Source of the DNA: Verrucomicrobium sp. BvORR106
Lineage (GTDB): Bacteria; Verrucomicrobiota; Verrucomicrobiia; Verrucomicrobiales; Verrucomicrobiaceae
NCBI RefSeq assembly: GCF_000739655.1
Contig: NZ_BATR01000052.1
Location: 1 to 61,089 of the forward strand
DNA length: 61,089 nt
Reading direction: 5' to 3'
Below the pieces are notes generated by a model. That model was not told the origin of the DNA and did not search any database. It worked only from the letters and a program-made list of their open reading frames with translations. Each line of letters begins with the position of its first letter. Positions within the stretch are counted from its first letter, which is position 1. A program made the translations under genes and the position numbers. Of the stretch, positions 22,170 to 41,615 are shown piece by piece.

Positions 22170-22248
22170 GTTTTTTCCATTTCGTGGCGACCAGGGCCTG
22201 GATCGACTGCGTTTTCCTACTGCGGCGTCCCGGCACGCTGAAGAAGAA

Positions 22249-22256
22249 GAGGAGGT
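22249..22256 (+). promoter_or_regulatory. Strong Shine-Dalgarno GAGGAGGT
   Basis: GAGGAGGT lies 9 bases before ATG 22266. It is the strongest ribosome-binding site seen in the window and marks the first gene of the 18-kb locus. Confidence 0.8.
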
Positions 22257-22265
22257 GTTGTTGCC

Positions 22266-24767
22266 ATGGCTCTGCTCCCTTTGAACTGGAAAGAAGGTGA
22301 AGGCTACGACATCCACGTGCTGCGGGGTGGTCCGCCGTCACGCTCGCTCATGGATGCGATCGAGGTCCCGGCAGATGTGCCCAACACCACGGCCTCGCTC
22401 ACGTTTACCCCTTTGTTCGCCGGACCTCCGGGTGCCCAATCCATCGCGGTGGATCTGTTCACCGGCAGCGTGACGGCCACGGTGCCCGCCGATCCCACGC
22501 GCCCCAAGCTGAACAACTTTCTCGTGAACGTTCAGTTCCGGGACACGCTCGATCCCCAGGCGCGGGACTTTCGCGCGGAGTACCGCGTGCATGTGCATGA
22601 TGGCATTGAAAAGCTGTGGCTGACGCCTTCCGTGCTCACGGCCCACCTGGGTGCTGATGAAATCCGATACACGGTGTTGGCGCTGTTTACCGATGGCGTG
22701 GTGGGGGACATCACGGACTGGGAATCGTTGCAGTACATCAGCGACACGCCGTCCGTGATAGGTTTCAGCTCTCAGGGGGTGCTCAGTGCCAAGGCTGCCA
22801 GTGGATCCGCGAACATCACGGCCCGCCTGCAGTTGAGCTCGCCCTCGGTGAACCTCACCTCGCCCCCCGCCCGGGCGCTGGCGGCACCTTCGTGGGTGGA
22901 TGTGGCGGGGAGTGCGCGCTTTCACTTCATCGCCGGCCCCTGTGCTCCCAATGCGGCGGATCCCAGCAGCGCCGCGCGGGACAGCGTGCAGACGGTGGTG
23001 GACAGCGCGACGAACATCCTGTTTGTCGCGGAAGGTTTCAGCGGTCCATTGCGGGGTGACTTCAACAATCTGGTGGCCACGATGGTGGAGGATTTGAGGT
23101 CCAAGTCACACCTCGAACCCTATCCCCTGCTCAAGGGGGCGATCAACTACTGGTCCGTCTATCTGCCATCGGAGGAGAATGGGATCACCGCGCTGGGTGA
23201 TCATGTCTATGAAGGGGCGTCGTTCACCGCATCGCTGGTGCCGCACATCGCCTTTGGTCCCACCACCGCGACATCATGGAGCCTTTCCCAGATGCTGCGG
23301 GAAGTGGGCTTTCCCACTCTGCCGGAGGTGGACACCCCGTTTCTACCGTCTCACGTGAACCGCTGGCAGAGGTTCTATGGCCCTCACGTGACACAGGACA
23401 AAACGCGGGCGGCTTATCCCGCGTGGACCAATCTGGCCTTGAGGACGCTCATCAACGAACGCTCCACAGCGTTTGGTCTCGCAGTCTCGGACCGGCCCCG
23501 GGCCCATCCCGCCACGCGGCTGGAGAACTCGCTGCGGTATGACTTTCGGCGGACCAGTGAAGTGAGCCTGCGGACTTTTGTGGAGGCGTTAAAATACGGA
23601 GGCTATCCTGTGGGGCAGACGTGGCAGAGTGGGGCGGGGGATGACGGACTGGTTTGCTTTGTCTGTCTCTCAGACCGGATCGGTGCCCAGGCCCGGTATG
23701 GCAACGGCTACATCACCGCAAGCACGGGGAGGAGGCGATTCGACAAGTTGGAGAAGGTGACTTCAGGAGGCTGGCAGGCGCAGGTCTCGCCGCCCATCAC
23801 ACACTCTCGCACTTTGCTGGCCTCCGTGATTTCCCATGAGCTCTCGCATGCACTGGGTCTGTGGGATGAGTACGGCGATGGTCGGGGGACCCGGCTGCTG
23901 GTGAAGCCCGCCGATCTGGATGATTTTCCCAATGCGGAGGCCGGCAATGACATCACGACCCTGGCCTCCACCGGAGTGGTGCAGTTCGACAAGTTGCAGC
24001 GGCTGAAGTGGAACTGGCCGCGACTCACCAAGGCGGGGGTGCTGACGGATCTGCCGCGCCGGTCGCTCAACGGCTATCACCTTGCGGTCGTTGGCGGACA
24101 TGGCACCCAGTTCGCCTTGGGAGATGTGGTGCGCTTCCGGGAGTGGCCGGTGGCGAAGCGTCCAGCCGATGATCCCTTCACCGCCTTTCACCGCACCTCG
24201 GGCCTTCAGTTTCAGGTGGTGGCGCACGATGCTGATTCTGTCTCGGTGGTACCGCTGAACTCCGGGGGCCAGCCGGTGGATGTGGACAGTCCCCGGCCGG
24301 GGCAGATGGATCCGCGAAGCTGGACGGAGATTCTGCACGCGACGTTCGTCCCTGATGTCGGCCATGCGGTCGTGGTGCCATTGCAAGCCAGCGGTGCCGA
24401 TGTCGGGCTGGTGGCCCCGGTGATCCTGCAACACATCGTGTCCAGCAACGGGCCGCTCAATGCGCCGGAGCTGCAGCCTGCGGCGGTCTGCGTGGCAGCG
24501 CGGAGTTCCAACTCGGTCATGACGCCCACCAATCTGCCTCGCCTGACCCGCAGCCCGAGAACGAGAGCGGACATTCTGGGCGTGTATGAAGGAGGAAGTT
24601 ATAACGACTGCGGCGTCTACCGGCCCGCAGGCAGGTGCAAGATGCGCAACACGGACACGACCATCCCGTTCTGTCATGTGTGTCGGTATGCCTTGGTGGA
24701 TCGGGTGTCGCCACCGCATCATCCTGTGTTGGATGCGGGTTATGAGCGCGTGTATCCGCAGGGGTAA
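22266..24767 (+). CDS. M64-like metallopeptidase, HExxH intact (paralog A)
   Basis: 833 residues. The middle and C-terminal parts resemble M64 (IgA-peptidase-like) zinc peptidases: NILFVAEGFSGPLRGDFNNL with INYWSVYLPSEENGI (about 255-305), the zinc motif H524-E-L-S-H528 in SHELSHALGLWDEYGDG, and a C-terminal cysteine cluster CGVYRPAGRCKMR...FCHVCRY. The N-terminal 220 residues look like two beta-sandwich, Ig-like segments (VHVHDGIEKLWLTPSVL; DEIRYTVLALFTDG). No signal peptide is visible (MALLPLNWKEGEGYDIHVLRG), unusual for a family that is often secreted. It heads the locus behind a strong ribosome-binding site. Its substrate is unknown. Confidence 0.72.
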   Translation: MALLPLNWKEGEGYDIHVLRGGPPSRSLMDAIEVPADVPNTTASLTFTPLFAGPPGAQSIAVDLFTGSVTATVPADPTRPKLNNFLVNVQFRDTLDPQARDFRAEYRVHVHDGIEKLWLTPSVLTAHLGADEIRYTVLALFTDGVVGDITDWESLQYISDTPSVIGFSSQGVLSAKAASGSANITARLQLSSPSVNLTSPPARALAAPSWVDVAGSARFHFIAGPCAPNAADPSSAARDSVQTVVDSATNILFVAEGFSGPLRGDFNNLVATMVEDLRSKSHLEPYPLLKGAINYWSVYLPSEENGITALGDHVYEGASFTASLVPHIAFGPTTATSWSLSQMLREVGFPTLPEVDTPFLPSHVNRWQRFYGPHVTQDKTRAAYPAWTNLALRTLINERSTAFGLAVSDRPRAHPATRLENSLRYDFRRTSEVSLRTFVEALKYGGYPVGQTWQSGAGDDGLVCFVCLSDRIGAQARYGNGYITASTGRRRFDKLEKVTSGGWQAQVSPPITHSRTLLASVISHELSHALGLWDEYGDGRGTRLLVKPADLDDFPNAEAGNDITTLASTGVVQFDKLQRLKWNWPRLTKAGVLTDLPRRSLNGYHLAVVGGHGTQFALGDVVRFREWPVAKRPADDPFTAFHRTSGLQFQVVAHDADSVSVVPLNSGGQPVDVDSPRPGQMDPRSWTEILHATFVPDVGHAVVVPLQASGADVGLVAPVILQHIVSSNGPLNAPELQPAAVCVAARSSNSVMTPTNLPRLTRSPRTRADILGVYEGGSYNDCGVYRPAGRCKMRNTDTTIPFCHVCRYALVDRVSPPHHPVLDAGYERVYPQG

Positions 24768-24840
24768 GTTTTCGCGATGCATTCCCGCTGGCAGAGGCAT
24801 GTGAGGGGTGTATCTTGGGGCAACCACCCCGAAGCGACTT

Positions 24841-25311
24841 ATGCTGACCTGCCTGCCCAAGTCCTTGTGCTCACGTGACTTCCGCATCCTTGGTACCTCC
24901 GATGCCGCGGCGGTGAACTTCAACCCCTTCACGGAGCAGGGCAGCATATCGTTGGGAGACTCCGAGTTCGCGATCCGCAAGCATGGACCGATGAGCGGGC
25001 ACTGGACGCTGGAATGCAACGGGCAGGCGGTGGCCGATGCCCGGAAGCCCCGCGCGATGTATCGTTCCTTTGACGTGAAGGTCGCAGGGAATCAATTCAC
25101 CTTGAAGGCGCATTCGTCGTTCAACCGCGCCTTTGACATCCTGGTGGGGAATCAGCCGGTGGGGGTGATCCGGCCTGCTCACGCCTTCACCAGAAGGGCT
25201 TTTGTGGAGTGCACTTCACCCATCCCGGAACATGCGCAGCTGTTCCTCTTTTGGCTGGTGGCGCTGCTCTGGCGCAGGGATGAGGATACGGTGTATGTCG
25301 CGGGGACGTGA
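24841..25311 (+). CDS. Unrecognised 156-aa protein between the two M64-like paralogs
   Basis: I do not recognise this protein. From ATG 24841 it reads MLTCLPKSLCSRDFRILGTS, then alternating short beta-type stretches (SISLGDSEFAIRKHGPMSGH; YRSFDVKVAGNQFTLKAHSS) and ends with one hydrophobic segment, HAQLFLFWLVALLWRRDED, which may be a membrane helix or a buried helix. The pattern of repeated short strands is loosely like tubby/LURP-one-type barrels, but this is only an impression. It lies 73 bases after paralog A and 239 bases before paralog B on the same strand, so it may be part of the same locus or an insertion into it. Confidence 0.55.
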   Translation: MLTCLPKSLCSRDFRILGTSDAAAVNFNPFTEQGSISLGDSEFAIRKHGPMSGHWTLECNGQAVADARKPRAMYRSFDVKVAGNQFTLKAHSSFNRAFDILVGNQPVGVIRPAHAFTRRAFVECTSPIPEHAQLFLFWLVALLWRRDEDTVYVAGT

Positions 25312-25442
25312 GTCCCATGAAGGCTGTGTTTCCCTGTCGTGAAAATTTGCACCGGGGAATTATGAAACAACTTGCTTAGGGTGAGTCTGTTTCAACGTGC
25401 AGCCGGATGCATTCGCATAAACTGCTCTTTGCGCCATCCAAT

Positions 25443-25460
25443 AGTTTGCGTTCACAAACT
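25443..25460. promoter_or_regulatory. Perfect inverted repeat upstream of paralog B
   Basis: AGTTTG-CGTTCA-CAAACT, with further TTTGCG strings nearby (25462-25467 and 25485-25490), lies 33 bases before the predicted -35 box. It may be an operator for the downstream unit. Confidence 0.45.
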
Positions 25461-25492
25461 GTTTGCGCCGGGGTTCCTCCGTGCGTTTGCGA

Positions 25493-25523
25493 TTGACGCC
25501 GGGGTGCGGGATGCGTCTAATAT
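25493..25523 (+). promoter_or_regulatory. Predicted sigma70-type promoter
   Basis: TTGACG (25493-25498), 19-base spacer, TAATAT (25518-25523), 27 bases before ATG 25551. It would give a very short leader. The spacer is longer than the optimum of 17. Confidence 0.5.
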
Positions 25524-25550
25524 GAAGTTCTGCATCCTTGAGCTTTGCTT

Positions 25551-28151
25551 ATGGCCGATCCGCTCCCATGGAAGGAAGGAGGAGGGTACGATGTTCACGT
25601 CCTGAGGGGCGGACCGGCATCTGAACCGCTGGATGCGCAGCTGGAGCTCAGCCAGGATCCGAATGCGATGGCACCGGTGTTCCTGCCGCATTTTCAGCAG
25701 ACTGCGGCGAATCACGGGGTGAATGTGGACCCCGGCAACGGGCAGGTTACCGCCATCACGGGGGCGGCGGCTCCGTTTCAGAACTTCAACTTCATCATGA
25801 CCGCCCGCCAGGTCATCGGCGGCGTGGGCACTCTGGAGACCCAGATCCGCGTGCATGTGCACAGAGGGGTGACGAAGATCTGGTTGACTCCTGATACTTT
25901 GAGCCCGCGGGTGGGCTCGGACGAAATGAGCTTCACCGTGCTGGCGCAGTTTGATGATGGCACGGTAGGCGACATCACGGACTGGCCCCAGTTGACTTAC
26001 ACCAGCGCGGCTCCCACCAAGGTGAAGGTCCTGCCGGCGAGTGCGACCGTCAGAAAGGGCACCCTCTCTGCGGTGGCGGCAGGCATGGATGCAGACATCA
26101 CCGTGAAACTGGTATTGAGCGCGCTGTCCATCAACCTGCAGGCGACGGGCAAGGCCTTCGCCCTGCCTTCGTGGGCGGATGCGGGCAAGGCGGCGAAGGT
26201 GGCGTTCGTGGACGGGGGCTCGGGGACGAGGCCCGATGAAACGGACCCCGATGGCAGCAATCCCACCAGCGTCCGCATTGTGGTGGAGAAGCGGACGAAT
26301 GTGCTGTTCATCTCTGACGGGTTTACCGACGCTCAGGAGAGCGACTTCCGGCAGAAAGTCGTGGATGTGATCGTGAACAATGAGCTGCGATCCAGCGAGA
26401 TCCTGCAACCTTTCAAACTCCTGGAGGGCGTGATCAACTACTGGTCCGTCTTCCTGCCCTCACGGGAAGAGGGAGTCGGCGTGTTGGGGGATCAAGTGGT
26501 GCCAGGTGCGGTGCCCTCGTTGATTGCCGAGGATGTGCCTTTGCCACGCCCACCTCCTGCTCTGGTGTCTCAGCCCTTGACGCTGGTGGAGATGATTCAT
26601 GCAGGGGGACTGCCGGTGCCGGCCCAGCCTCAATTGACCAGTCCCAACGCGTGGTTTGCTGATCGCAATGCCATCTACGATCTACAGTTCGCACCATCGG
26701 AGGTGGACCAGGTCGCGCTGGACAGTTGGAATCTGCTCCAGCCGCGTACGCTGCTCAATGAGCGCAACACGGCATTTGGCGTGGCTCATCAGGAGCGCAC
26801 CCGTATCTCTTCGGCACGGGAGCCTTCAGGGCGGCTGGTGATGGACGCGAGGCGCACTACTGACGCCAGTCTGGAGACGTTCTTGAAGAACCTGAAATTC
26901 GGTCTGAACGCCACCACGAACGTGCGAGCTGCCATTGGCGAGACCTGGGCGGATTTCAATACCAGCATCACACCTGCGGAGGGCAGGGATTTTGGCCTGG
27001 TCTGTTTCATCTGCCGCTCAGGTCGCCGCGGTGGCAGTTGGAAGTCGCTTTTTCAAATGCAGGGCACCACCCGCATGGCCTATTTTTCCGCCAGCACGGG
27101 AGGTGCTGAGAAATCGGAGGTCAGTGTCGCCACCAACGGGCATGCGATCACGCCACCCACGGTGCCCTTGTTCTCCTCGCCCATGGTAGCGTCGGTGGTC
27201 GCCTATGGTTGTGCGAGGGCGCTGGGGCTGAATGATGAGGCGGGGGACGGCCATGGGGCGGCACCTGCGCCCACGAGCCTGTCGCCCTTCGGGGAGAATC
27301 TGCAGCCCGAGAGCGTGATCAGCAATGTGATGGGCGGGGTTCGCACCATCAACGCACCGCGGATTGACTGGCTGTGGCCACGAGTCACCAAAGGCGTGCG
27401 GGTGAAGGTGGATATCAATTTTGCCGGCACCGTCGTCTCACCGCAGCTGTGTGACACGAACGGCAACCCGAACCCCGCCGGTACCTTCCTGCTCTTTGAG
27501 TATCTGGACAGTGCGCCCGATCCGTTTCCCCTGGGAGTTGAGGTGCGGTTTCGCACCAGTGTGGAGAAGCTTGGTTCGTCCTTCCACTGGACCTCACCCA
27601 AGCATGACTTGCGGTTGCTCATTCCGTTGAGGGTGCACAAGCTGCTGCAAGACAAGGTGGTGCTCTCAGATCCGAATCCTGCGGGCCTGCAGATCAATCC
27701 CACGATGCTGGTGAATGCCGGGGTGGGGGCGCTCTTCACCCTGAGCACGACGGCGGCGGGTGCCACGAATGCGCTGATTGCCCCCGCCATCCTGACTCAT
27801 ATCGATACCAGTGATGGCCCGCTCAACGCCCCGCCGGGTCCGGTCCCGCCTCCCAACGCCCATGTCTGCATGGCGAGCAACAATCCGCAGAAGACCATGT
27901 CGCCGACCAATCTGCCACCCGGCTTCAAGAAGCCCAAGAAGCTGCCTTCTCGTGCCGACCTCATCGGCATCTATGACGGCGGAGGGCATGTGGACTGCGG
28001 CGTTTACCGGCCCGCCGGACGCTGTCGCATGCGTCACCGGATCAATGCGACCCTGCCCTTCTGCCAGGTCTGCCGGTATGTGATCGTGGACAAGGTGGAC
28101 CCGGCGTTTCAGGGCGCGCTCGATCTCCTCTACGCTCCACAGTATCCCTAG
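25551..28151 (+). CDS. M64-like protein with degenerate zinc motif (paralog B)
   Basis: 866 residues, paralogous to the gene at 22266 along its length. Both begin with LPxxWKEGxGYDxHVLRGGP, both carry the INYWSVxLPS segment, the phrase LxxPRTLLNERNTAFGxA or its like, and the C-terminal cluster CGVYRPAGRCRMR...FCQVCRY. The zinc motif is lost: where A has HELSHALGLWDEY, B has YGCARALGLNDEA (residues 552-564), so both histidines and the glutamate are replaced. B should therefore be catalytically inactive as a zinc peptidase, though the fold-defining residues persist. ATG 25551 is preferred over TTG 25545. It has its own likely promoter and is followed 21 bases later by the DUF6603-like gene. Confidence 0.75.
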   Translation: MADPLPWKEGGGYDVHVLRGGPASEPLDAQLELSQDPNAMAPVFLPHFQQTAANHGVNVDPGNGQVTAITGAAAPFQNFNFIMTARQVIGGVGTLETQIRVHVHRGVTKIWLTPDTLSPRVGSDEMSFTVLAQFDDGTVGDITDWPQLTYTSAAPTKVKVLPASATVRKGTLSAVAAGMDADITVKLVLSALSINLQATGKAFALPSWADAGKAAKVAFVDGGSGTRPDETDPDGSNPTSVRIVVEKRTNVLFISDGFTDAQESDFRQKVVDVIVNNELRSSEILQPFKLLEGVINYWSVFLPSREEGVGVLGDQVVPGAVPSLIAEDVPLPRPPPALVSQPLTLVEMIHAGGLPVPAQPQLTSPNAWFADRNAIYDLQFAPSEVDQVALDSWNLLQPRTLLNERNTAFGVAHQERTRISSAREPSGRLVMDARRTTDASLETFLKNLKFGLNATTNVRAAIGETWADFNTSITPAEGRDFGLVCFICRSGRRGGSWKSLFQMQGTTRMAYFSASTGGAEKSEVSVATNGHAITPPTVPLFSSPMVASVVAYGCARALGLNDEAGDGHGAAPAPTSLSPFGENLQPESVISNVMGGVRTINAPRIDWLWPRVTKGVRVKVDINFAGTVVSPQLCDTNGNPNPAGTFLLFEYLDSAPDPFPLGVEVRFRTSVEKLGSSFHWTSPKHDLRLLIPLRVHKLLQDKVVLSDPNPAGLQINPTMLVNAGVGALFTLSTTAAGATNALIAPAILTHIDTSDGPLNAPPGPVPPPNAHVCMASNNPQKTMSPTNLPPGFKKPKKLPSRADLIGIYDGGGHVDCGVYRPAGRCRMRHRINATLPFCQVCRYVIVDKVDPAFQGALDLLYAPQYP

Positions 28152-28172
28152 AAAAGTTGTTGCATCAAACCC

Positions 28173-31100
28173 ATGGACCCTCCTTCCAGCACCCTGCACA
28201 CCCTGGCCCGCCATCTGGTGCTGGCCTTGCGGCCGCTGAAGGCGGGCGTGGCGGATCTTCCTGCCTTCCGCACGCTCTTGTACCGCCTCGCGTGGAACGT
28301 GAATTCGCTGCCGCCGGCATACACGGCACTGGCCGCGAGAGTGGATGCGGCGGTGACTTCATTGGAGGCCCTGGGGGACGGTCCTTCGCCCGAGGAAGTC
28401 TTCGCCTTGCTGGACCAGGTGAAGGCGCTCTATGATGCCATCGGCGCTTTGCAGACCGCGCCGGGTGGCGTGCCAGCGGCGGAGTTTTTGCAGGAGTTTG
28501 GGCGCAGTCTTTTTGAGCTGTTGCTGGCGGACTATCTCAACGAAGCATTTCCAGAAGTTCACGGTGCCTTACAGGCGTTGGACATTCTCCGGCAGGAGTA
28601 TCAGGAGGAGACTCCCACCCGGCCCGGCGTGCTGGTCACCCGGTTCGCGTGGGAAGAGATTCCCAGAGTCCTGGCGGACCCGACGCTGGTGGCGGAGCGG
28701 GTGTACGGCTGGGGAACGAATGATGTGGACTTCCACCGGCTCGCCGGGCACCTGCTGGAGGTCTTTGTTTCGCTTGGCTGGCCGGTTTATCTGGGGCGGT
28801 TGGAGCCGGAACTCGGCCGGGGATTCAAGGAAACTCCTGGCAACCCGGCGGTCGCCATCGACTGGGCGCTCAAGCTGCCCGTGCTGCTGGACAACATTGG
28901 TGGTGAGGAGGTGGAGGTGGGGCTCGCGCTGGTGGAACTGCCCGCCCAGGAGGGCAAGCCGGCGGGGTTGATCCTGCAACCTCTGGTGCCTCCGCAGGTG
29001 GGGAATGCCTTCCAGCTTGCCGATGACCTGAGGCTGGAGCTGCGCGCGGGTAGCGATGTGGCCAACACCTTTGGCGTGCTGCTGCGCCCCGGGGATATCT
29101 CGGTTAAGTTCCCGCTGCAATCAGGGGCTGCGCTGCCGACAGCAGGCTTCGGGGTGACCTTCAAGTATGCCCCGCAGACAGCGGCGTTGCTGCTGGGCAC
29201 TCCAGGTAAGACACGTCTCGAGCTCAAAGGGGCCAGCAGCACCTTCGCTTTGGATTTCAGGAACGGACAACTGGAGCTGCAACTCTCCGCGGCGCCACAG
29301 GGCTTGCGGATGGTGCTGAATGCCTCAGATCTGGACGGCTTTCTGGGGAGTCTGCTGGGGGGAGGAGAGAAGGTCCTGCCCATCGTGCTCTCGCTTGCCT
29401 GGTCCAACCGGACGGGGTTCAACTTCACGGGCGGAGCCGGGTTCGAGGTTTCCACCCACCCGCATCTCAACGCCGGGCCGTTCCGCGTGGATCGTCTGGA
29501 TCTGGCGCTCAAGTCCACCTTCAGCACGGCGCAGGCTCCGGACCTGAAGGCGGAGGCGGGCACGGTGCTCTCGGGCAAACTCGGCCCGGTCTCCTTCGTG
29601 GTGGAAGGGTTGGGGGTGTCGGTGACCGTGGCGTTTGAAGACGGCAATGCCGGTCCCTTTGACATCGATGCGGGCTTCAAGCCGCCGACGGGGCTTGGCA
29701 TCCTGGTGGATGCCGGGCCCATCTCCGGGGGAGGCTTCCTGTCTTTTGACAGGGACCGGGGCCGGTACTCCGGCGCGCTGGAACTGGAAGTCTTCGGCAC
29801 AACGCTCAAGGCGGTTGGGTTTGTGGAAACAAGGCTGCCCGGCGGCGCCTCGGGGTTCTCGTTCGTCATCCTCATCTCCACGCAGTTCGCACCCATCCAG
29901 CTCGGGCTGGGGTTCACTTTGAACGGGGTGGGTGGTCTGGCGGCGCTGCATCGCGGGCTGGCCACGGAGGCGCTGCAATCGGGTCTGCGCAATGGCAGTC
30001 TCGGCTCGTTGTTGTTTCCTGCAGACGCGATTGCCGAAGCACCCCGCATCGTGAATGACCTGAGCGTCATCTTCCCGGCGGCGCGGAACCGCCATGTCTT
30101 TGGCCCCATGGCGCTGATCGGCTGGGGCACCCCCACTCTCGTGCGCGCAGAGCTGGGCATCGTGCTGGAGCTGCCCTCGCCAGTGCGCCTGACCTTGCTG
30201 GGACTCATCACCACCAAACTGCCCACGGAGGATGCGGCCATCGTGGAGCTTAATGTCGCTGTCTTGGGTCGGGTCGATTTTGCCCGGAAGTTCCTGGCGA
30301 TCGATGCCTCCCTCTTTGACTCAAATGTCGCAGGCTTCCCGGTCAGCGGGGATATGGCGGTGCGTTTGGCCTGGGGGGAGAATCCAAGCTTTATCATCTC
30401 CCTGGGTGGCGTGAATCCGCACTTCCAGCCGCCACCGGATTTTCCATCGCTGCAGCGGCTGACCATCGTGCTGGCTGACGGGGACAATCCGCGGCTCACC
30501 TGTCAGGCTTATCTGACTGTGACCTCCAACACGTTGCAGTTTGGGGTGAATGCCGAGCTGTATGCCGCCGCGTTCGGTTTCAATGTTCGCGGGCAGGTCA
30601 GCTTCGACTGCCTCATCCAGCTCTCGCCCTTTTCCCTGCTCGCAGAGCTGTCGGCGGAGGTGGCGTTCCGCCGGGGATCCAGCGTGCTGGCCAGTGTGCA
30701 CCTGGAGGCTTCGGTGTCCGGTCCTGCTCCGTGGCATGTCTGGGGAGAGGCTTCGCTCTCGCTCTGGCTGTTCGACGTGAGCGTGAGCTTCGACGTGACC
30801 TTTGGTCGCGACAAGCCCCAGGAGCTGCCTCCTGTCGATCCGTGGCCGCTGTTGCAGGCCGCCCTGCAGGATCCGCGGAACTGGGCGGCGCAGCTTCCGG
30901 TGGGGGCGTTTCAGACCGTGTCGCTGAACATGGCGTCCAGCCCGGGCTCACCGGTGCTGGTGTATCCCGGTGGCGCGGCGACGGTGCGGCAGGCGGTAGT
31001 TCCCTTAAACCGGACGATCACGCGCTTCGGTCCGGTGCGCCCCTCCGGGCCGGATCACTACACGGTGCAGACGGTGACGTTGAACAACAACCCGGCCCCC

Positions 31101-31619
31101 GGTCTGGTGCCAGTGACTGATTTCTTCGCTGCAGCCCAGTTCGAGGAGCTGACGGAAACCGACCGGCTCTCCCGGGCCTCCTTCGAGCGCATGGATGCGG
31201 GGCTGAGTGTGGCCGCGGACGCGGTGACCCAGGGCGGCGCGGTGGGGGCAGGGCTGGAGTATGAGACCATCATCCTGGATGTGCCGTGGGAGCCGCGCCG
31301 GGTGCAGCGGTATGAGCTGATCCTCACGCATCAGCTCGCGTTCCTGGAGCTGGGCGCTTCATCGCTGGGATTGTTCCAGAGCACGGGGCTGGTGAAGTTT
31401 ATGCCGGGAGGTGCCGCCGCCGCGCCTCTGGTGGTGCTGGAGGAGGATCTCTTTGTGGTCAGCAGCACGGAGGATGGCGCGATGTTGGCCGGCATCACGG
31501 GGCCGGTGGGGCGGGGCGTGGCCCAGGCCGCGCTGGCACGGCATCTCAAGGCCCATCCTCAAGACCGAGGACGCGTGCAGGTGGTCCCGCAGTTTGAAAC
31601 CGAATCTCTTCCGTCATGA
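28173..31619 (+). CDS. Large DUF6603-like protein
   Basis: 1148 residues. An alpha-helical N-terminal part (1-150) is followed by a very long beta-rich, glycine-punctuated region. The segment PPTGLGILVDAGPISGGGFL and GRYSGALELEVFGTTLKAVG (about 500-550) resembles the DUF6603 domain as I remember it; no function is established. Repeated amphipathic strands (SVSFDVTFG, LTLLGLITTKLP, NTLQFGVNAELYAAAFGFNV) give it the look of an extended beta structure. No signal peptide or membrane helices are apparent. It overlaps the next gene as ATGA, implying coupled translation. A structural or scaffold role is conceivable, but nothing in the sequence proves it. Confidence 0.62.
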   Translation: MDPPSSTLHTLARHLVLALRPLKAGVADLPAFRTLLYRLAWNVNSLPPAYTALAARVDAAVTSLEALGDGPSPEEVFALLDQVKALYDAIGALQTAPGGVPAAEFLQEFGRSLFELLLADYLNEAFPEVHGALQALDILRQEYQEETPTRPGVLVTRFAWEEIPRVLADPTLVAERVYGWGTNDVDFHRLAGHLLEVFVSLGWPVYLGRLEPELGRGFKETPGNPAVAIDWALKLPVLLDNIGGEEVEVGLALVELPAQEGKPAGLILQPLVPPQVGNAFQLADDLRLELRAGSDVANTFGVLLRPGDISVKFPLQSGAALPTAGFGVTFKYAPQTAALLLGTPGKTRLELKGASSTFALDFRNGQLELQLSAAPQGLRMVLNASDLDGFLGSLLGGGEKVLPIVLSLAWSNRTGFNFTGGAGFEVSTHPHLNAGPFRVDRLDLALKSTFSTAQAPDLKAEAGTVLSGKLGPVSFVVEGLGVSVTVAFEDGNAGPFDIDAGFKPPTGLGILVDAGPISGGGFLSFDRDRGRYSGALELEVFGTTLKAVGFVETRLPGGASGFSFVILISTQFAPIQLGLGFTLNGVGGLAALHRGLATEALQSGLRNGSLGSLLFPADAIAEAPRIVNDLSVIFPAARNRHVFGPMALIGWGTPTLVRAELGIVLELPSPVRLTLLGLITTKLPTEDAAIVELNVAVLGRVDFARKFLAIDASLFDSNVAGFPVSGDMAVRLAWGENPSFIISLGGVNPHFQPPPDFPSLQRLTIVLADGDNPRLTCQAYLTVTSNTLQFGVNAELYAAAFGFNVRGQVSFDCLIQLSPFSLLAELSAEVAFRRGSSVLASVHLEASVSGPAPWHVWGEASLSLWLFDVSVSFDVTFGRDKPQELPPVDPWPLLQAALQDPRNWAAQLPVGAFQTVSLNMASSPGSPVLVYPGGAATVRQAVVPLNRTITRFGPVRPSGPDHYTVQTVTLNNNPAPGLVPVTDFFAAAQFEELTETDRLSRASFERMDAGLSVAADAVTQGGAVGAGLEYETIILDVPWEPRRVQRYELILTHQLAFLELGASSLGLFQSTGLVKFMPGGAAAAPLVVLEEDLFVVSSTEDGAMLAGITGPVGRGVAQAALARHLKAHPQDRGRVQVVPQFETESLPS

Positions 31620-34411: not shown

Positions 34412-34442
34412 CCTTGTTTCCTAATCCTTCCTTCCTCGTTGC

Positions 34443-37400
34443 ATGAGCGGCTCTTCATCAGCTTCCTACTCCCTGGCACAAGCCCGCCTGGCCCTTGCTG
34501 AGGCCCGTCGCAACACTGCTCGATTGCGGAGTGAGATTGCGGCGGCGGGGACGCAGTTGAAGGAGCTGGAACGTGGCCTGCCAGCACAGGATCCGCAGGT
34601 GATCGCGGCACGGCGCGCCCAAAAGGAGCGGCTGGAACGGCTGCGGGAGGCCAGGGAAAAGGAACGCGCGGCGCAGGCGGCGACGGATCGCGGACTGGCG
34701 GAGGTGTTGCGAGACAGCGTGGCCAATGATGTGGCGCAGCTCTCCGCGGAGTATCCCGTGGTGCTGCTACCCGTCCGGCTGGAGACACGCTTTGGATTCG
34801 ATGTGGCTGGCGCTCCCGTGTTGAGGGTGCGCATTTTTCCCGATGAACTGATGGCGGACACGCATGAGCCGCCCCTCACGCCGAAGGAGCGGGAGGCGGG
34901 CATCGCCTACTGGCGGGCGGGCTGGGAGGCGGCCGGGGAACGGGAAGCCTGGCGGCTGCTGGTGGCGCAGTTTCCTGCAACCCGCGCGGCGTGGATCGCA
35001 AGGGTCCTGACCCCGTCGAACGTGGCCTCACGACCCGCAGGGGATCCCGTGTTTCCTCAAACTGAGGAACGGCCCCAGAGCTGGACCCGGCCTGCGGAGG
35101 CGCGGGTGCTGCCGGACCGCTGGCTGGTCACCATCTTCCGCAGTCGAAGGGCGATTCATCGGGCGACTACCCTGCCGGTGAAGGAACCGCTGGCCCTCAC
35201 CCTCAGCCCTGTGGTGGAGGAGGGGGACGCCAGCATGGCCACGCTGCCGGATGGCTTGCAGATCGATGACGACATTGCCTGGACGGTGAACTATGACCGT
35301 GCGGTGGAGGCGGGCATGGCCGTCACCCTGCCGCTGTCTGCCCAGGATCTGACGCGGGGCATTGAGCGGCTCATGGTGGTGGGGGTGAAGTCGTCCCTTT
35401 CTCCAGAGGAGGCGGGGAAGCGTCTGGAAGAGCTGCTGGAGAATCATCACTACGGTCGCGGACTGGCCTTTGTGCCGCAGGGCACTCCCACCAACAACGC
35501 CAGCGAGGTTCCCTCTGGGTTCCCCGTGGTGGATCCCGATGGCGCGTTGAGTTTCGAGACGGAGCGCGGCGCTCCCCTGAGTGGACCGGAGAGCAACGGT
35601 ACGCTTTTTGCCCGAGCGCTGGGCGTGCAGGAGGAAACGGCGGCCCATCTGGCCGGGGCGGGCGATGCGGAGCAGCCGCGGGCACGGGCGATGAACGAGG
35701 CGCTCTGGCCGGCCACGTGGAATTATTTCCTGGACCAGCTCATGGACCCCGTGATCACGGACGCAGGGGTGCAGCAGGCGCGGCGTCACTTTGCCTCGCA
35801 TGTGCGGGGACGGGGACCGCTCCCGGCCTTCCGCACGGGGGCCACGCCGTATGGGCTGCTGCCGGTGAGCTCCTTGAACCGATGGGTGCCCGGTCAGTCG
35901 GACCCGGTGGCGGAGACGCATCTGGTTCCGCTGCTCCGCACGCTGCGGGGCATCTGGCAGGAGCAGGTGCCGCGCGTGCCGCGGGTGGGGGGCACGGGAG
36001 ATCCGGATGAGGACCTGCTGGCGGTGCTGGGCATGGACGCGAGCACGCGGGAGGCGCGGCTGAGACGTGTGCTGGGCCCGCAGTTTCAGACGCAGCTCTT
36101 TGCCTCTCTGAACATCAATGCAGGCAACTGGCAGACGCGTCTGGCCTCGCTGGCGCAGAGTGTGATGAGCCGGATCGGGCATCCGGAGTGGAGCCCGCGA
36201 CTGGCAAGGATGAGCTTCTCCGACAGCGCGCATCTGGTGGGCAGTCACTTCGTGGCTCCGGCACCGTTGTCTGAGACGGAGGGGTTGCCGGGGTTCAACT
36301 ACATTCAGTGGATCCGCACCGCCTCGCTGACGGAGCTCCGGCAGGAGCAGTTTCCACGAGGAGTGAGCCGGCCGCCAGCACTGCTTTATCATCTGCTGCG
36401 GCACGCGGCGCTCAGCCTGTATGCGGATGCGGGCACGAAGCTGGCGATCAGACACAACCTGGCCACACGCGAGGATCTGAGGGAGGCGGAGCTACTCAAT
36501 CTTGGCGGCGGCAACACTACAACGCGGAGAACGGTGTGGCAGCGGCTCGACCTGAGAATCCCGAATGTCACGGGGGACCGCACGCTGGGGGACTTCCTGC
36601 TGAAGGACCGCCAGGTGGAGGACACCAAGGCCATCCGGGCCTACCATGCGGTGCTGGAGGGTCTGGAGACGCTGCCCACCGCAGAGCTGGACCGGCTTTT
36701 CACGGAGACGCTCGACACCTGCTCCCACCGGCTGGATGCGTGGATCACCTCCCTGGCCTCCAAGCGGCTCGAGGAAATACGCGGACGGCAGCGGCATGGC
36801 AGCCATCTGGCCGCCTTCGGCTGGGTGGAAGACTTGAGACCGGACGCGGCCCGGCCCGGCGTGGAGCCGGTGGACCTGGGCGGCTTCATTCACGCGCCTT
36901 CTTCAGCGCATGCCGCCACGGCGGCGATCTTGCGCAGCGCGCATCTCACCCGCTCCGGGGAGGATCCTGCACGGTATGCCGTGGACCTTTCGTCAACGCG
37001 CGTCCGTGAGGCCTCGACGCTGCTGGAGGCGGTGAGACAGGGGCAGCCGCTCGGCGCGGTGCTGGGCTATCGATTCGAACGTGGGCTGCACGAGGGGCAT
37101 CGTCCCCTGCGGCTCGACAAGTACATCGATCCCTTCCGTCGGATCTATCCCTTGGTGGCGGACAAGGGCGAGGAATCCGGTGAGGCGGCGGAGGCGATTG
37201 CCGCACGCAACGTGGTGGACGGCCTCCTGCTGCGAACCGCGTGGCAGGAGGGGACAATCCCCTGGGGGCAGCGTGGGCTTCCCGGCGGCGGAAATGACCG
37301 GACGGCGATCGAGGCGGAACTGCGCCGGCTGGACGGCGCGGTGGATGGGGTGGCAGACCTGCTCACGGCGGAGTCGGTGTTTCAAATCGTTCGAGGAAAC

Positions 37401-38891
37401 AGCGGCCGTGCTGCCGGGGTGCTGGACAGCCTGGCCCAGGGGGCGCGGCCTCCGGAGCCGGAGGTGGCGGTGCAGCCGCGCACGGGCACCACGCTGACCC
37501 ATCGAGTGGCGCTGGTGCTGGGTGGGGAGCCGGTCGCGACTGCGGATTGGGCGGGTGTGCCGCTGACGCCGCGCGCGCAGGTGGAGCCTTATCTGGACGC
37601 CTGGGCGGGGACGCTGCTGGGGCATCCGGCGAATGTGCGATGCCGGGTGGGATTCGTTGATGCATCGAACCAGGCGGTGGAGCGGGAGGTGACACTGGCG
37701 GAGCTGGGGCTGCGCCCACTGGACGTGCTGGCGCGGGCCGGAGCTTCTGTGTCGGTGCTGGACCGGCAGGTGACGGCGCTGCTTCCTGCTGATGCCACCG
37801 GAGTGGAGATCCGCTATGCCGCCGCGCCAGACTGGGATCGGGCTGTGGTGCGGACCTTTCCTGATCTGCTGGAGGTGGCGCGGGCCTTGAACGCACTGCT
37901 CACGCAAGGCCGTCCGCTGGAGCCCAAGGATCTGGTCTCCCCAGAGAATGCGCAGGCGGCAGATGCTGCGGACCGGCTGGAGGCGGAGGCCACGCAGCGG
38001 GCTGGTGACGCGACGAGCGCACTGGACGGGGCGATTGCGCAGTTGCAGGCAGGCCCGGTTTCCGACACGGTCGCGGCTCGTACGGGCATCCTGTTTGGGG
38101 TGCCGGAGACTGCTGCGACGGGCGGGGTCGAGGCCCTGCTGGCCGAGCTGTTGCGGCGCAAGGAGGCTGCGGACACGGCTACGAGGGCGAGGGACAAGGT
38201 GCGGGCAGTCTTTGGGCGTGATTTCCTCTTCCTGCCGCGTTTCAAGGGCGTGAATGCCGCCGAGCTGGGTCTGGCGCTGGCCCATGGCCCTGCGCTGGTG
38301 GGGCGGCCGCAGGTGGTGAGCCGCTGGGTGCAGCAGGTGTCTCGCGTGCGGAACCCTCTGGCCGCCTGGCGGCAGCTTTCTCTTCTGACCACCGCGCTGG
38401 GACGTCCGGCGGGTTCGTGGAATGTGGCCCAGCTTCCTCATGCGCCTACCGGGAAGTGGGTGGGGCTGCCGTTTGCCAGTGAAGAAGAGCGGCCGGAGTC
38501 GGGGCGTCTCTCCCTGGTGCTGAACCGCGCCAGCGCGCCCGCGGCGACGGATGCCTGGGTGGGGCTGATGCTGGATGAGTGGAGTGAGATTATCCCTGCC
38601 CGCCGCGAGGATACCTCGATCGCCTTCCACTACGATGACCCGGGCGCGGAAGCCCCACAGGTGGTGCTTATCGCCGTGCCGCCGGTGGAGACGCCGCAGT
38701 GGGATCTGGACACTCTGCATGACATCCTGCACGACACCCTGGATCTGGCGAAGCTCCGCGCGGTGGACGGCGATCTGCTGCCGCTGGGCCAGCTCCTGCC
38801 CGCCATCTACATGACCGCGAACACGCGCCGGGAGGCGGTGACCGCAGACCTCGGCGCGATCCTCCAGCGCGCGCCGGAGGCCACCCTTTAA
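34443..38891 (+). CDS. Giant protein of unknown function (1482 aa) with N-terminal coiled coil
   Basis: I cannot assign a function. Residues about 8-90 are a long charged coiled coil (RRNTARLRSEIAAAGTQLKE; RLERLREAREKERAAQAATD). The conserved-looking core then begins: YPVVLLPVRLETRFGFDVAG, RVRIFPDELMADTHEPPLTP, and ARAMNEALWPATWNYFLDQL at about 420. The C-terminus has WVGLMLDEWSEIIPARREDT, FHYDDPGAEAPQVVLIAVPP and LDTLHDILHDTLDLAKLRAV. The codon pattern is uniform and rich in GCG/CTG. No export signal or membrane segment is visible. Long antisense frames over this gene are by-products of high GC. The next gene follows 18 bases later. Confidence 0.62.
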   Translation: MSGSSSASYSLAQARLALAEARRNTARLRSEIAAAGTQLKELERGLPAQDPQVIAARRAQKERLERLREAREKERAAQAATDRGLAEVLRDSVANDVAQLSAEYPVVLLPVRLETRFGFDVAGAPVLRVRIFPDELMADTHEPPLTPKEREAGIAYWRAGWEAAGEREAWRLLVAQFPATRAAWIARVLTPSNVASRPAGDPVFPQTEERPQSWTRPAEARVLPDRWLVTIFRSRRAIHRATTLPVKEPLALTLSPVVEEGDASMATLPDGLQIDDDIAWTVNYDRAVEAGMAVTLPLSAQDLTRGIERLMVVGVKSSLSPEEAGKRLEELLENHHYGRGLAFVPQGTPTNNASEVPSGFPVVDPDGALSFETERGAPLSGPESNGTLFARALGVQEETAAHLAGAGDAEQPRARAMNEALWPATWNYFLDQLMDPVITDAGVQQARRHFASHVRGRGPLPAFRTGATPYGLLPVSSLNRWVPGQSDPVAETHLVPLLRTLRGIWQEQVPRVPRVGGTGDPDEDLLAVLGMDASTREARLRRVLGPQFQTQLFASLNINAGNWQTRLASLAQSVMSRIGHPEWSPRLARMSFSDSAHLVGSHFVAPAPLSETEGLPGFNYIQWIRTASLTELRQEQFPRGVSRPPALLYHLLRHAALSLYADAGTKLAIRHNLATREDLREAELLNLGGGNTTTRRTVWQRLDLRIPNVTGDRTLGDFLLKDRQVEDTKAIRAYHAVLEGLETLPTAELDRLFTETLDTCSHRLDAWITSLASKRLEEIRGRQRHGSHLAAFGWVEDLRPDAARPGVEPVDLGGFIHAPSSAHAATAAILRSAHLTRSGEDPARYAVDLSSTRVREASTLLEAVRQGQPLGAVLGYRFERGLHEGHRPLRLDKYIDPFRRIYPLVADKGEESGEAAEAIAARNVVDGLLLRTAWQEGTIPWGQRGLPGGGNDRTAIEAELRRLDGAVDGVADLLTAESVFQIVRGNSGRAAGVLDSLAQGARPPEPEVAVQPRTGTTLTHRVALVLGGEPVATADWAGVPLTPRAQVEPYLDAWAGTLLGHPANVRCRVGFVDASNQAVEREVTLAELGLRPLDVLARAGASVSVLDRQVTALLPADATGVEIRYAAAPDWDRAVVRTFPDLLEVARALNALLTQGRPLEPKDLVSPENAQAADAADRLEAEATQRAGDATSALDGAIAQLQAGPVSDTVAARTGILFGVPETAATGGVEALLAELLRRKEAADTATRARDKVRAVFGRDFLFLPRFKGVNAAELGLALAHGPALVGRPQVVSRWVQQVSRVRNPLAAWRQLSLLTTALGRPAGSWNVAQLPHAPTGKWVGLPFASEEERPESGRLSLVLNRASAPAATDAWVGLMLDEWSEIIPARREDTSIAFHYDDPGAEAPQVVLIAVPPVETPQWDLDTLHDILHDTLDLAKLRAVDGDLLPLGQLLPAIYMTANTRREAVTADLGAILQRAPEATL

Positions 38892-38909
38892 GCCCTAGTT
38901 TGTTTCCTC

Positions 38910-40622
38910 ATGCCATCCATCACCTACTGGAACCGCCTCGAAGTGAGGCCGCGCTCGGCCAACTTCGCCTCTGCGCTCTCCGCCCGCATCCGTGATCCGC
39001 TGTGGATGCTGACGCGGCAGTGGCAGTTTGGCGAGTTCAAGGGGGAGGATGCGGCGGCCCCGGCGTATGTGCAGGTGGCCACCACGCAGAGTCAACTGAC
39101 GGGCTGGGTGCAGGGGGACGGCTCGGTGGCTCCGATCCAGAATGGCGACCTCATGGAGCCGATGGTGCAGGCAGAGGCGCTGACGCCGGACTACGCCTCC
39201 CGGGTGGAGGTTGGCCAGCTCTTTGAGCAACTCCTCACGGAGGCCGGAGTGCCGGAGCTGGTGCCTGACTTTCGCCGTGCCTATCCGCTGCTGGCACTGC
39301 AACCGGAGGAGATCGCTGGAGACCCGGATCATGATACGCTGAGGTTCCGGCAGGTCATGACGGGTCGGGCGCTGGATGGCATTTCCTTGAACCGGGCGGC
39401 AACCGTGGCCTTTCCCGGACTGCCCCCGGAGCCGGTGGTGGATCCGACTCAGCAGGGGCCCGTGAGGGACGCGCTGGACCGGCTGGCGGAGTGGGTGCGG
39501 GAGGTCTGGGGGGTGTTTGACACCACGGACCCCGGCATCTGGGATCCCGCGCGGTTGGAGTACAGGGTGACCCTAGTGGCCGGTGCGCCCTCGGGTGAGA
39601 GCATCGCCTTGAAAGCCCGGCCGGGCAGCAATGCGGACTTTGGCTGGCAGTCGCTGGAGGTGGCTGGGGAGAGTCCGCCCCCCTCCGCTCCGGCACCGCC
39701 GCCGGTGGAGGCGAAGAGCCTCACCGTCATCCCGGGGCGCGTTCAGTTTCGCGGCATGCCTAATCATCGCTGGTGGGATTTCGAAAACGGTCAGGTGGAC
39801 TTTGGCGGCATCACGCCAGACAAGCGGGACCTCGCCCGGCTCGTGGTGATGGACTTCATGCTCGTTCAAGGAAACGACTGGTTCCTGGTCCCGGTTGAGC
39901 AGGAGACGGGCACTCTCACCCGGGTGGACTCGCTGGTGGTGCATGACGTTTTCGGCGGCACCACGAGGATCGAGCGCGCGGATGCATCACCCGGACCGGC
40001 GGGGCAGCGATGGACGCTCTACTCCACCACGGTGGAGGCGGCACCCACAGGGCTGGCTGGGTTCTTCACCCTGAGCCCCAATGTGGGGCCAGCCGTTCAA
40101 CAAGGGTTAGTGCTGGAGGAGGTGAGATTTCTGCGGGATGAGATGGCGAACATGGCGTGGGCGGTGGAACATACGGCGGAAAATGGCCTGGGCCGTGCGT
40201 GGCCGGGGCATGAGAGGGATCTGGCCCTGCCCCCTCCGCTGACGAGCGGACCGGTCGATACGCCGTTGCGATATCAACTGCAAACCCGGGTGCCGCAGAA
40301 CTGGCTGCCGCTCATTCCGGTGGCGATCGATCCGCAGGAAGGCGACATTGCCCTCGAGCTCGGGGCCCTGCTCACGCAGGGCGAAAATCCGCAGCCCATC
40401 CGTCCGACGGGGCGCATTCTGCAACCCTCCGCCATCGGCAGTGTGGCCTACCGCATTCGAGAAGAAGAAGTGCCCCGCGAGGGATTGCAGGTCTCTCGTG
40501 TGATGTGCCGCTGCCGGGGCAGCGATGGCTCCACGCATCTCTGGGTGGCCCGTCGCAAGCAGATCGGCCGGGGTGAAGGCTCCAGCGGCCTGCGGTTTGA
40601 CCTGGCGGTGGAGGCAGAGTGA
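38910..40622 (+). CDS. Unknown protein (570 aa), last gene of the 18-kb locus
   Basis: No function recognised. The N-terminus is distinctive: ITYWNRLEVRPRSANFASAL, then IRDPLWMLTRQWQFGEFKGE, which looks like a strongly conserved family signature. The middle contains MPNHRWWDFENGQVDFGGIT and the LARLVVMDFMLVQGNDWFLV stretch (about 285-330). The end reads LRYQLQTRVPQNWLPLIPVA and IGSVAYRIREEEVPREG. It is soluble, without a signal peptide. A reducing 'FKGEDAAAPAYVQVAT' beta-region follows the signature. A DeoR regulator on the opposite strand ends 36 bases downstream, which closes the locus. Confidence 0.62.
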   Translation: MPSITYWNRLEVRPRSANFASALSARIRDPLWMLTRQWQFGEFKGEDAAAPAYVQVATTQSQLTGWVQGDGSVAPIQNGDLMEPMVQAEALTPDYASRVEVGQLFEQLLTEAGVPELVPDFRRAYPLLALQPEEIAGDPDHDTLRFRQVMTGRALDGISLNRAATVAFPGLPPEPVVDPTQQGPVRDALDRLAEWVREVWGVFDTTDPGIWDPARLEYRVTLVAGAPSGESIALKARPGSNADFGWQSLEVAGESPPPSAPAPPPVEAKSLTVIPGRVQFRGMPNHRWWDFENGQVDFGGITPDKRDLARLVVMDFMLVQGNDWFLVPVEQETGTLTRVDSLVVHDVFGGTTRIERADASPGPAGQRWTLYSTTVEAAPTGLAGFFTLSPNVGPAVQQGLVLEEVRFLRDEMANMAWAVEHTAENGLGRAWPGHERDLALPPPLTSGPVDTPLRYQLQTRVPQNWLPLIPVAIDPQEGDIALELGALLTQGENPQPIRPTGRILQPSAIGSVAYRIREEEVPREGLQVSRVMCRCRGSDGSTHLWVARRKQIGRGEGSSGLRFDLAVEAE

Positions 40623-40658
40623 GGTTTCGGGAGCTTCAGGAGATAACGCAAAGGTGCC

Positions 40659-41486
40659 TTACACCACCTCGACCTCCATCCCGAGGCTCTCGATCTCCCG
40701 CCGTGCCGTGGTGGGCAGGCCGTGGTCGGTGATCAGGAGTTGCGCGGAATTAAGCGGGGCCACCCGCACCATGCCGGAGGTGGACCACTTGCTGGAGTCT
40801 CCCAGCAGGGTGACGCGCCGGGCGGAGCGGATCATCGCGCGCTTGATCTGGGCGATGTCCAGATTCGTGTCCGTCACGCCGTGATGCAGGTCCATCGCCT
40901 GCACCCCCAGAAAGAGGTGATCAACCAGCAGCTCCTTGAGCATCTCTTCTGTCCTCGAACCCAGCGTGCTTCCTGAATCCCTGCCCACCGTGCCTCCCAG
41001 CAGGATGACATTGGCGGCGGTGTGAGCGGTGGCGGCCAGGGCGACGTTCAACGCATTGGTGACGATGGTGAGCCCCTCCAACTGCGCCAGATGGGGGATC
41101 ATCTCGATGGCGGTCGTGCCAGCGTCCAAGATCAGGGACTGCCCGGCGTGAATCCGCTTTGCTGCGGCAGCGGCAATGCGGCGCTTCACCTCAATGTGCA
41201 GGCTCATGCGGTGATCCAAATCTGGCAGGGAGGTGACGGTACGAGTCATCACCACGGGGAGCGCACCCCCGCGATCCCGCACCAGTTTGCCTTCGCGCTC
41301 CAGGTGATCGAGGTCCGTCCGGATGGTGACCTCGGAGACGCCAAAGCGCTTGGCTAGTTCCGTGACGCGTACCGCGCCTTCCTCGCGCACTAGCGCTGTG
41401 ATCTGGCCGCGGCGCTGGGCGGTCATCAGCGTGGTGTCCGCCGCGGGGGTGGAGGCTTTCGCGGTATTTTTGGAAGGGGTTCCCAT
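40659..41486 (-). CDS. DeoR-family transcriptional regulator of the fructose operon
   Basis: 275 residues from ATG 41486. The N-terminal winged helix reads ITALVREEGAVRVTELAKRF, then GVSEVTIRTDLDHLEREG and LVRDRGGA, the DeoR hallmark. The C-terminal sugar-phosphate sensor domain has RIHAGQSLILDAGTTAIEMI, NALNVALAATAH, VILLGGTVGRDSGSTLGS, and DHLFLGVQAMDLHHGVTDTN. By position it should repress fruA and downstream genes and be released by a phosphorylated intermediate such as fructose 1-phosphate; that is inference. MTAQRRG at 41426 is another possible start. It is divergent from fruA, and the repeats at 41545-41610 are the likely binding site. Confidence 0.88.
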   Translation of the reverse strand: MGTPSKNTAKASTPAADTTLMTAQRRGQITALVREEGAVRVTELAKRFGVSEVTIRTDLDHLEREGKLVRDRGGALPVVMTRTVTSLPDLDHRMSLHIEVKRRIAAAAAKRIHAGQSLILDAGTTAIEMIPHLAQLEGLTIVTNALNVALAATAHTAANVILLGGTVGRDSGSTLGSRTEEMLKELLVDHLFLGVQAMDLHHGVTDTNLDIAQIKRAMIRSARRVTLLGDSSKWSTSGMVRVAPLNSAQLLITDHGLPTTARREIESLGMEVEVV

Positions 41487-41544
41487 CACAAGTATTCGAA
41501 GGCGTTTACAAGAAATCGCAAGAAAAATCCCCCGTGAGCTGCCG

Positions 41545-41610: not shown

Positions 41611-41615
41611 AGCCG

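Follow-up and report, generated by a model that had tools for sequence, protein, structure and literature searches.

A 61,089-nucleotide stretch of Verrucomicrobium sp. BvORR106 DNA (contig NZ_BATR01000052.1, positions 1 to 61,089, assembly GCF_000739655.1), referred to below as the window, carries on its forward strand a row of seven genes, four of which form a core that keeps its order over many bacterial phyla and the haloarchaea. The conservation of this core (a DUF6603 protein followed by three large proteins, here P931, P1482, and P570) is well supported, as is the anatomy of the whole cassette, in which the position immediately 5' of DUF6603 is a slot for exchangeable genes. The two M64-like metallopeptidase genes found there in the window are cargo, not core. 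On balance, the cassette is probably a mobile, modular enzyme carrier composed of a cargo, a cargo-matched adaptor, and a common scaffold. Its parts in the window are:

22155..40651, no strand assigned: accessory block, in this genome and missing from the same-genus genome G003 (~13 bp there)
22266..24767, + strand: cargo 1, M64-like metallopeptidase, 833 aa; Pfam E 3.1e-13, HELSH..GLWDEY motif intact
24841..25311, + strand: 156-aa protein between the two cargo genes; it is present in the sister species, and no relative was found in 80 loci
25551..28151, + strand: cargo 2, M64-like paralog, 866 aa, adjoining the adaptor; Pfam E 4.7e-9, HExxH lost
28173..29462, + strand: residues 1-430 of the DUF6603 protein, a cargo-matched module; matching fades out by about residue 480
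29463..31619, + strand: conserved domain (Pfam 431-996) and C-terminus of the DUF6603 protein; 481-900 do not track cargo
31616..34411, + strand: 931-aa core protein (P931), whose gene shares 4 bases with the DUF6603 stop; layout predicted as beta / helical / beta
34443..38891, + strand: 1482-aa core protein (P1482)
38910..40622, + strand: 570-aa core protein (P570), which serves as cassette marker
38994..39053, + strand: P570 conserved motif DPLWMLTRQWQFGEFKGEDA, of low model confidence; possibly a contact site

The seven open reading frames (ORFs) are confirmed at the positions and sizes given in an earlier note, which had been made from the letters of this DNA, and so is its description of the row as a whole: the spacers of 73, 239, 21, -4, 31, and 18 bases are borne out, given ATG starts at 24841 and 25551, and a ribosome-binding site of AGGAGG type lies ahead of 22266. 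The “likely promoter” it placed ahead of the second paralog was not recovered, with no sigma-70-type site in 22100-25600 (0.6 expected). Signature motifs ascribed to the three large proteins do exist, but were listed in reverse order of the protein sizes: LLWNEYPTDQRGSYFRQF is in the 931-aa, YPVVLLPVRLETRF in the 1482-aa, and MLTRQWQFGEFKGEDA in the 570-aa protein. These three proteins, which it had called unknowns, have no above-cut-off match in Pfam or NCBIfam. The two M64-like paralogs and the DUF6603-like protein are as it named them, each passing the Pfam cut-off: the paralogs score 50 and 36.3 bits with PF09471 (cut-off 26), and the DUF6603 protein matches PF20248 over the full length of the domain (E 4.6e-121, 405 bits; cut-off 27). 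A zinc motif of HExxHxxGLxDE type is kept in the first M64 paralog and absent from the second, which is probably inactive. In the window it is this degenerate copy that is adjacent to the adaptor; the adjacent copy in other lineages retains the zinc motif.

For the distribution of the core, a collection of genomes from 84,980 species was scanned with a single eight-residue pattern, yielding 525 stretches, 484 of them encoding a relative. Among the best 80 of these 484 loci, P1482 is beside P570 in 79, P931 in 67, and DUF6603 in 43; where P931 is missing (13 loci), the P1482 gene (P570 in L060) begins no more than ~0.4 kb from the end of the retrieved sequence. All 38 genomes that were searched whole have DUF6603 on the strand of P570 and 9-13 kb upstream of it; they had been picked from the 80 loci, so P570 was present in all of them by choice. 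DUF6603 and P570 occur jointly in 40/40 chosen genomes or records, and DUF6603 also in all 22 genomes of another set, made up of 19 new loci plus three further ones. P570 was found in 15 plasmid records and P1482 in 13 (Streptomyces, Nocardia, Rhizobium, Paraburkholderia, Gemmatirosa, and haloarchaea), with 12 of the 15 P570 records retrieved for locus reading. The order DUF6603 - P931 - P1482 - P570 is seen in 11 of the 13 plasmid loci examined, with some genes split; the exceptions are L011, with P570 alone, and L020, with a split DUF6603 and no recognized P570. The signature motifs of P931, P1482, and P570 are conserved between distant loci, and around the core no further family occurs in more than seven loci of the 80-locus set. 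One P570 copy, in a “Patescibacteria” metagenome-assembled genome (MAG; L030), is almost identical to a Myxococcales MAG copy (L029 and L031 compared in the P570 tree); the contig is probably misbinned.

Families found mostly apart would have refuted the earlier note, but P931, P1482, and P570 stay together, and the undescribed multi-protein unit it envisaged stands in that four large proteins are co-ordered across phyla. What does not stand is a system of seven parts, the M64 paralogs and the 156-aa gene not being core. A fixed seven-part system was rejected, with M64 and the 156-aa family in 0/80 loci (retrieved flanks, mostly ending short of the slot) and the slot filled by other genes. Given those other genes, the “processing system with a peptidase” of the note gives way to a carrier whose enzyme can be exchanged. 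DUF6603 itself is wider than this cassette, because L150 and L151 carry extra DUF6603 genes beside other large partners and a short protein distantly resembling P931, with no recognizable P1482 or P570, and L152 and L154 carry DUF6603 genes with no recognized partner. A divergent DUF6603 locus of this kind is also found in G055, a relative of the same order.

Within the genus the block is cleanly present or absent. A one-contig genome without it (G003) has ~13 bases where the window has 18.5 kb: positions 1-1681 of its locus (L142) align to window 20474-22154 (90%) and positions 1695-5001 to window 40652-43958 (92%). All seven genes recur in the sister species G001, 81-93% identical; because it keeps them, and because the block is a clean presence/absence unit, the seven genes are more than a chance row. 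Elsewhere the distribution is patchy: among 288 genomes of the phylum, P570 was found in two (the window's own genome and G001), DUF6603 in 3 of 57 relatives with the window's genome included, and P570 in 4 of 39 genomes in and around a Larkinella genome. The cassette would thus seem to be mobile.

The gene 5' of DUF6603 could be assigned to one of seven families, as a same-strand neighbor, for 50 of 85 DUF6603 rows; the rows are partly dependent, including fragments or genes taken twice (L108/L149, L138/L151, and the two L020 halves). The assigned neighbors are trypsin/NAL1-like (12), M64 (10), PhoD-like (9), phospholipase D (PLD, 6), subtilase (S8, 6), and two unknown families, C6 (4) and u390 (3), and 39 of the 50 end no more than 40 bases before the DUF6603 profile match. 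Among the M64-like slot genes, those of L105, L111, and L122 are above the Pfam cut-off and that of L125 below; among the PhoD-like, those of L010 and L121 are above and that of L132 below. Slot genes found at single loci include a class-A beta-lactamase-type protein (above cut-off), a metallo-beta-lactamase, and a matrixin (both below), and some slot genes are of peptidoglycan-binding type. Catalytic motifs are largely kept: the zinc motif in 9 of 10 M64 neighbors (the exception is the sister-species copy of paralog 2), the PLD motif in 6/6, GDSG in 12/12 trypsin-like neighbors, and the serine motif in 6/6 S8 neighbors, with cross-matches between the latter two set apart.

These cross-matches arise where the S8 and trypsin-like profiles match each other's ORFs (raw motif counts 7/13 and 12/17), and it was through them that a shared C-terminal domain was recognized. 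The two kinds of cargo, with different catalytic folds, have in common a domain of ~90-130 residues (domain E 1.4e-13 to 4.2e-19), present in 12/12 trypsin-like and 5/6 S8 neighbors and in no other assigned family. Cargo exchange is frequent, with at least 18 changes on the P570 tree (29 labelled rows, 11 cargo states). A second cassette in Leptolyngbya (L153) has the rearranged order P1482 - P570 - PhoD-like - DUF6603, so that the cargo-DUF6603 pair stays together. In the Chitinophagaceae, five dissimilar genes upstream of DUF6603 start with MCK[ST] or MCRK (L106 3334-5445, L129 3527-7527, and L140 4506-6056), possibly a shared N-terminal tag.

The DUF6603 protein is a mosaic, in which a module extending to about residue 480 follows the type of cargo and residues 481-900 do not. 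In a first test, on 26 loci, those with the same cargo resembled each other in the N-terminal 430 residues more than expected from P570 identity (p 0.0005), while the effect for the Pfam domain was not clear (p 0.053). The main test used 48 DUF6603 copies, with each protein's own C-terminal part as yardstick; L006 (a near-duplicate of the window), L174 (694-base spacing), and copies with no assigned cargo or fewer than 850 matched residues were excluded. N-terminal identity averaged 0.334 in same-cargo pairs vs. 0.207, and after regression on C-terminal identity the same-cargo excess was +0.104 (permutation p 0.0005; 169 of 1128 pairs same-cargo). For pairs with less than 45% C-terminal identity it was +0.063 (p 0.0005; 105 of 863 same-cargo), with N-terminal identities by family of 0.306 for M64, 0.281 for trypsin-like, 0.294 for S8, 0.319 for PLD, and 0.348 for C6 (2 pairs), against 0.204 for different cargo. 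By 60-residue windows, there is an excess in every one from 1 to 480 (the last +0.034) and in none from 481 to 900. The N-terminal tree needs at least 7 cargo changes, 6 being the fewest possible, and the C-terminal tree at least 22.

Three Nitrospira loci have tandem PLD-DUF6603 and S8-DUF6603 pairs, whose DUF6603 copies are 91-96% identical C-terminally and 19-22% N-terminally, identity stepping from ~20% to >90% at about residue 490-510. In its N-terminal part, the Nitrospira PLD adaptor shares 27-30% identity with a myxococcal PLD adaptor (L137) and 35-36% with the adaptor of L178, a diverged second cassette of another Nitrospira genome; for the Nitrospira S8 adaptor the corresponding figure is 31-32%, to a Variovorax S8 adaptor (L112). 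Across families, trypsin-like and S8 adaptors are the most alike (0.257, 52 pairs; others 0.174-0.245; no significance test).

If the cassette is an enzyme carrier, the N-terminal module of DUF6603 would bind the cargo, and the C-terminal DUF6603 domain would dock the cargo-adaptor pair onto a large soluble assembly of P931, P1482, and P570. Trypsin-like and subtilase cargo would probably be held via their common C-terminal domain: this may be the part gripped by the adaptor module, because the S8 and trypsin-like adaptors are those most alike across families. In the window, the cargo would be the M64 metallopeptidase whose probably inactive paralog lies beside the adaptor. The assembly would deliver the enzyme to where it acts, which is most likely outside the cell and reached through lysis or some other non-classical release. 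Signal-like starts, by a hydropathy measure, were found in 0/60 P931, 0/69 P1482, 0/80 P570, and 3/90 cargo-family matches (some ORFs being in two families), and none of the seven window proteins has an export signal by the same measure, as the earlier note had said; three neighboring secreted-type proteins were flagged as controls. Over their first 50 residues the M64 proteins show no hydrophobic stretch (again hydropathy, not SignalP). Action outside the cell without signal peptides would therefore need release without Sec or Tat. Haloarchaeal and Streptomyces versions have inserts annotated as surface, lamin-tail, or repeat domains. More tentatively, it is possible that the cassette is a cross-domain enzyme-delivery machine unlike phage tails or known secretion systems by sequence, in which a soluble three-protein scaffold (~3000 residues per set) takes interchangeable cartridges of an enzyme plus its matching DUF6603 adaptor, the machine spreading by horizontal transfer and the signal-less enzymes acting outside the producer.

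Several observations weigh against an enzyme carrier. For 35 of the 85 DUF6603 rows, some of them fragments or divergent loci, no cargo was assigned; two slot families of the seven, with 7 of the 50 neighbors, have no recognized domain; and the trypsin/NAL1 label comes from one member's below-cut-off match (25.3 vs. 27 bits) and the GDSG motif, another member having no Pfam match. PhoD-like adaptors show no N-terminal excess (0.192 vs. 0.204 for different cargo, at <45% C-terminal identity), and in the test by 60-residue windows a small same-cargo excess appears at residues 901-960 as well (+0.022). Extracellular action is suggested just by the enzyme types and the annotated inserted domains. 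Finally, if recombination breaks fall within the conserved domain, the cargo and the 5' part of the DUF6603 gene could move together, without any protein contact.

Taken as a full explanation, this last point would mean that cargo gene and 5' part are exchanged jointly, on a single piece of DNA, whenever the conserved DUF6603 domain recombines, with no match at the protein level. The boundary does fall just inside the conserved domain (about residue 490-510), cargo and module do adjoin on the DNA, and the PhoD-like cargo has no match; hitch-hiking alone is quite unlikely, however, given that the match persists below 45% C-terminal identity, that cross-family adaptor similarity is highest for unrelated enzymes with a common C-terminal domain, and that tandem cargo-DUF6603 pairs retain one adaptor per cargo. 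The main rival, though itself rather unlikely, is an intracellular conflict system (anti-phage or similar), in which sensing or holding falls to the big proteins and the exchangeable enzyme serves as an effector released inside the cell. Its effector would sit beside a fixed core, as the slot genes do, and would need no export signal; the patchy, mobile distribution (2/288 genomes of the phylum, 4/39 around Larkinella, plasmids, and the clean indel within the genus) would suit it, and at other loci some slot genes have PADLOC matches (L112 subtilase 3.8e-30 and IetS 3.3e-7; L137 DrmC 2.5e-5). However, none of the six window proteins compared with PADLOC (2023 library) has a match at E <=0.1, Pfam, NCBIfam, and PHROGs revealed no NTPase, nucleic-acid-binding, or cyclase domain in the core, and some kinds of cargo are usual outside cells (M64, the class-A beta-lactamase fold, peptidoglycan-binding).

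The scaffold might instead be loaded into or onto the particle of an extracellular contractile injection system (eCIS), as a payload. In three Chitinophaga an eCIS operon (Pvc16, sheath, tube, CIS tube, and baseplate) lies directly downstream of the cassette (L046, L050, and L052, the last being Chitinophaga filiformis DSM 527; 12-21 kb), and Pvc16_N is in 24 of 40 cassette genomes: 8/11 Bacteroidota (5/8 without the three Chitinophaga), 4/9 actinomycetes, and 12/18 of other groups. The Bacteroidota excess over relatives persists without Chitinophaga (5/8 vs. 8/35 and 15/57). Control relatives were taken for actinomycetes and Bacteroidota only, with groups assigned manually from record names; the relatives of a Chitinophagaceae genome and of a Kribbella genome were unscreened for the cassette, and one (G408) carries it. 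The background in these lineages is high, at 8/35 Cytophagales-type relatives without P570, 15/57 relatives of the Chitinophagaceae genome, and 24/57 relatives of the Kribbella genome, the last leaving actinomycetes with no excess (4/9 vs. 24/57). One eCIS study gives 89% of Chitinophaga as having eCIS (PMC8213781). Linkage is seen in 3 of 80 loci, all in one genus (searched with Chitinophaga proteins only), and Pvc16_N is in neither of two genomes of the window's genus (G000 and G001). A general eCIS payload is not established, given the relatives' background and the confinement of linkage to Chitinophaga, and a payload role is very unlikely. Least probable are ordinary degradative enzymes that happen to lie beside a structural operon and do no joint work with it: hydrolases are common in large environmental genomes, but the slot is same-strand and within 40 bases in 39/50 cases, and module and cargo are matched.

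An enzyme carrier of the kind preferred here would have likenesses among known systems. Polymorphic toxin systems (Rhs, contact-dependent inhibition, and the like) consist of a constant carrier and an exchangeable catalytic part, a pairing that the cassette shares; unlike them, its cargo is a separate gene ahead of the carrier rather than a C-terminal tip, it has no signal peptide, and no immunity gene was recognized at the cassette, no systematic search having been made. Modular defense systems such as Avs and CBASS combine a fixed core with interchangeable effectors and are patchy and mobile in distribution, as the cassette is, but its core has no recognizable sensor or nucleotide chemistry and no PADLOC match. 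Loading of effectors by eCIS and the type VI secretion system (T6SS) likewise involves a fixed machine with exchangeable enzymatic effectors; unlike these, the cassette core has no tail tube, sheath, baseplate, or spike match. As described in PMC8213781, eCIS are environmental, partly plasmid-borne, and common to archaea as well, and PMC10469887 mentions a Salmonella candidate T6SS effector with a predicted M64 domain. Within the IgA peptidase M64 family (PF09471), the first window paralog passes the Pfam cut-off with its HExxHxxGLxDE-type motif and the second is degenerate. ThomasA, another M64 protein, is credited in PMC12402451 with a signal peptide and a sortase-type motif; the window M64 proteins differ in having no signal. 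In DUF6603 (PF20248), the Pfam domain spans the constant part only, while the cassette's N-terminal part varies with the cargo.

Searches for relatives of the core proteins were mostly negative. P931, P1482, and P570 have no convincing match among PDB sequences; a weak match of P570 to 3kdq with an 11-row profile (E 7e-4) was gone with a 68-row profile and was discarded. No PHROGs family matches the four core proteins at E <=1, which agrees with the earlier note's finding no phage structural marker, and the M64 paralogs match only at E 0.21 and 0.61. Sheath, tube, baseplate, and Pvc16 had no Pfam match in the 27 window ORFs scanned. A phage origin was rejected, with no PHROGs match for the core and a negative scan of viral contigs with P1482, which detects close relatives only. 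P931, P1482, and P570 are present in an unverified “Bacteriophage sp.” scaffold from human feces (L021, MT835531, 30100-39078), where the phage label is doubtful.

A structure model of P570 (68 rows; pLDDT 83.5, pTM 0.80) gave a best Foldseek E of 0.22 and a best VIA Z of 2.9 over 60 residues at 2.4 A; for P931 (49 rows; pLDDT 85.8, pTM 0.75) the best values were E 0.15 and, to Ig-like chains, Z 5.1 over 81 residues at 3.5 A. Neither search produced a convincing relative, which does not by itself establish a new fold. Within residues 23-48 of P570, a highly conserved stretch has some of the lowest confidence in the single-chain model and may be a contact site. Among open-licence PubMed Central papers no literature was found on DUF6603 or PF20248, nor any description of the cassette or its modular logic.

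The cassette brings together, in bacteria and archaea, three families without described function or recognized fold relative, and the pairing of cargo and adaptor module is readable from sequence, the PhoD group excepted. If the pairs bind as predicted, nature would offer a class of enzyme carriers whose parts are interchangeable, and DUF6603, along with several hundred “hypothetical” large proteins, would acquire a role.

Two further features of the window lie outside the block. The AlkZ-like ORF at 20799-22169 is listed with a GTG start that is probably too far upstream, the matching stretches of G001 and G003 containing stops. At 53601-58499, beside a sulfatase gene, is a 1632-aa protein with eight autotransporter-type PATR repeats.

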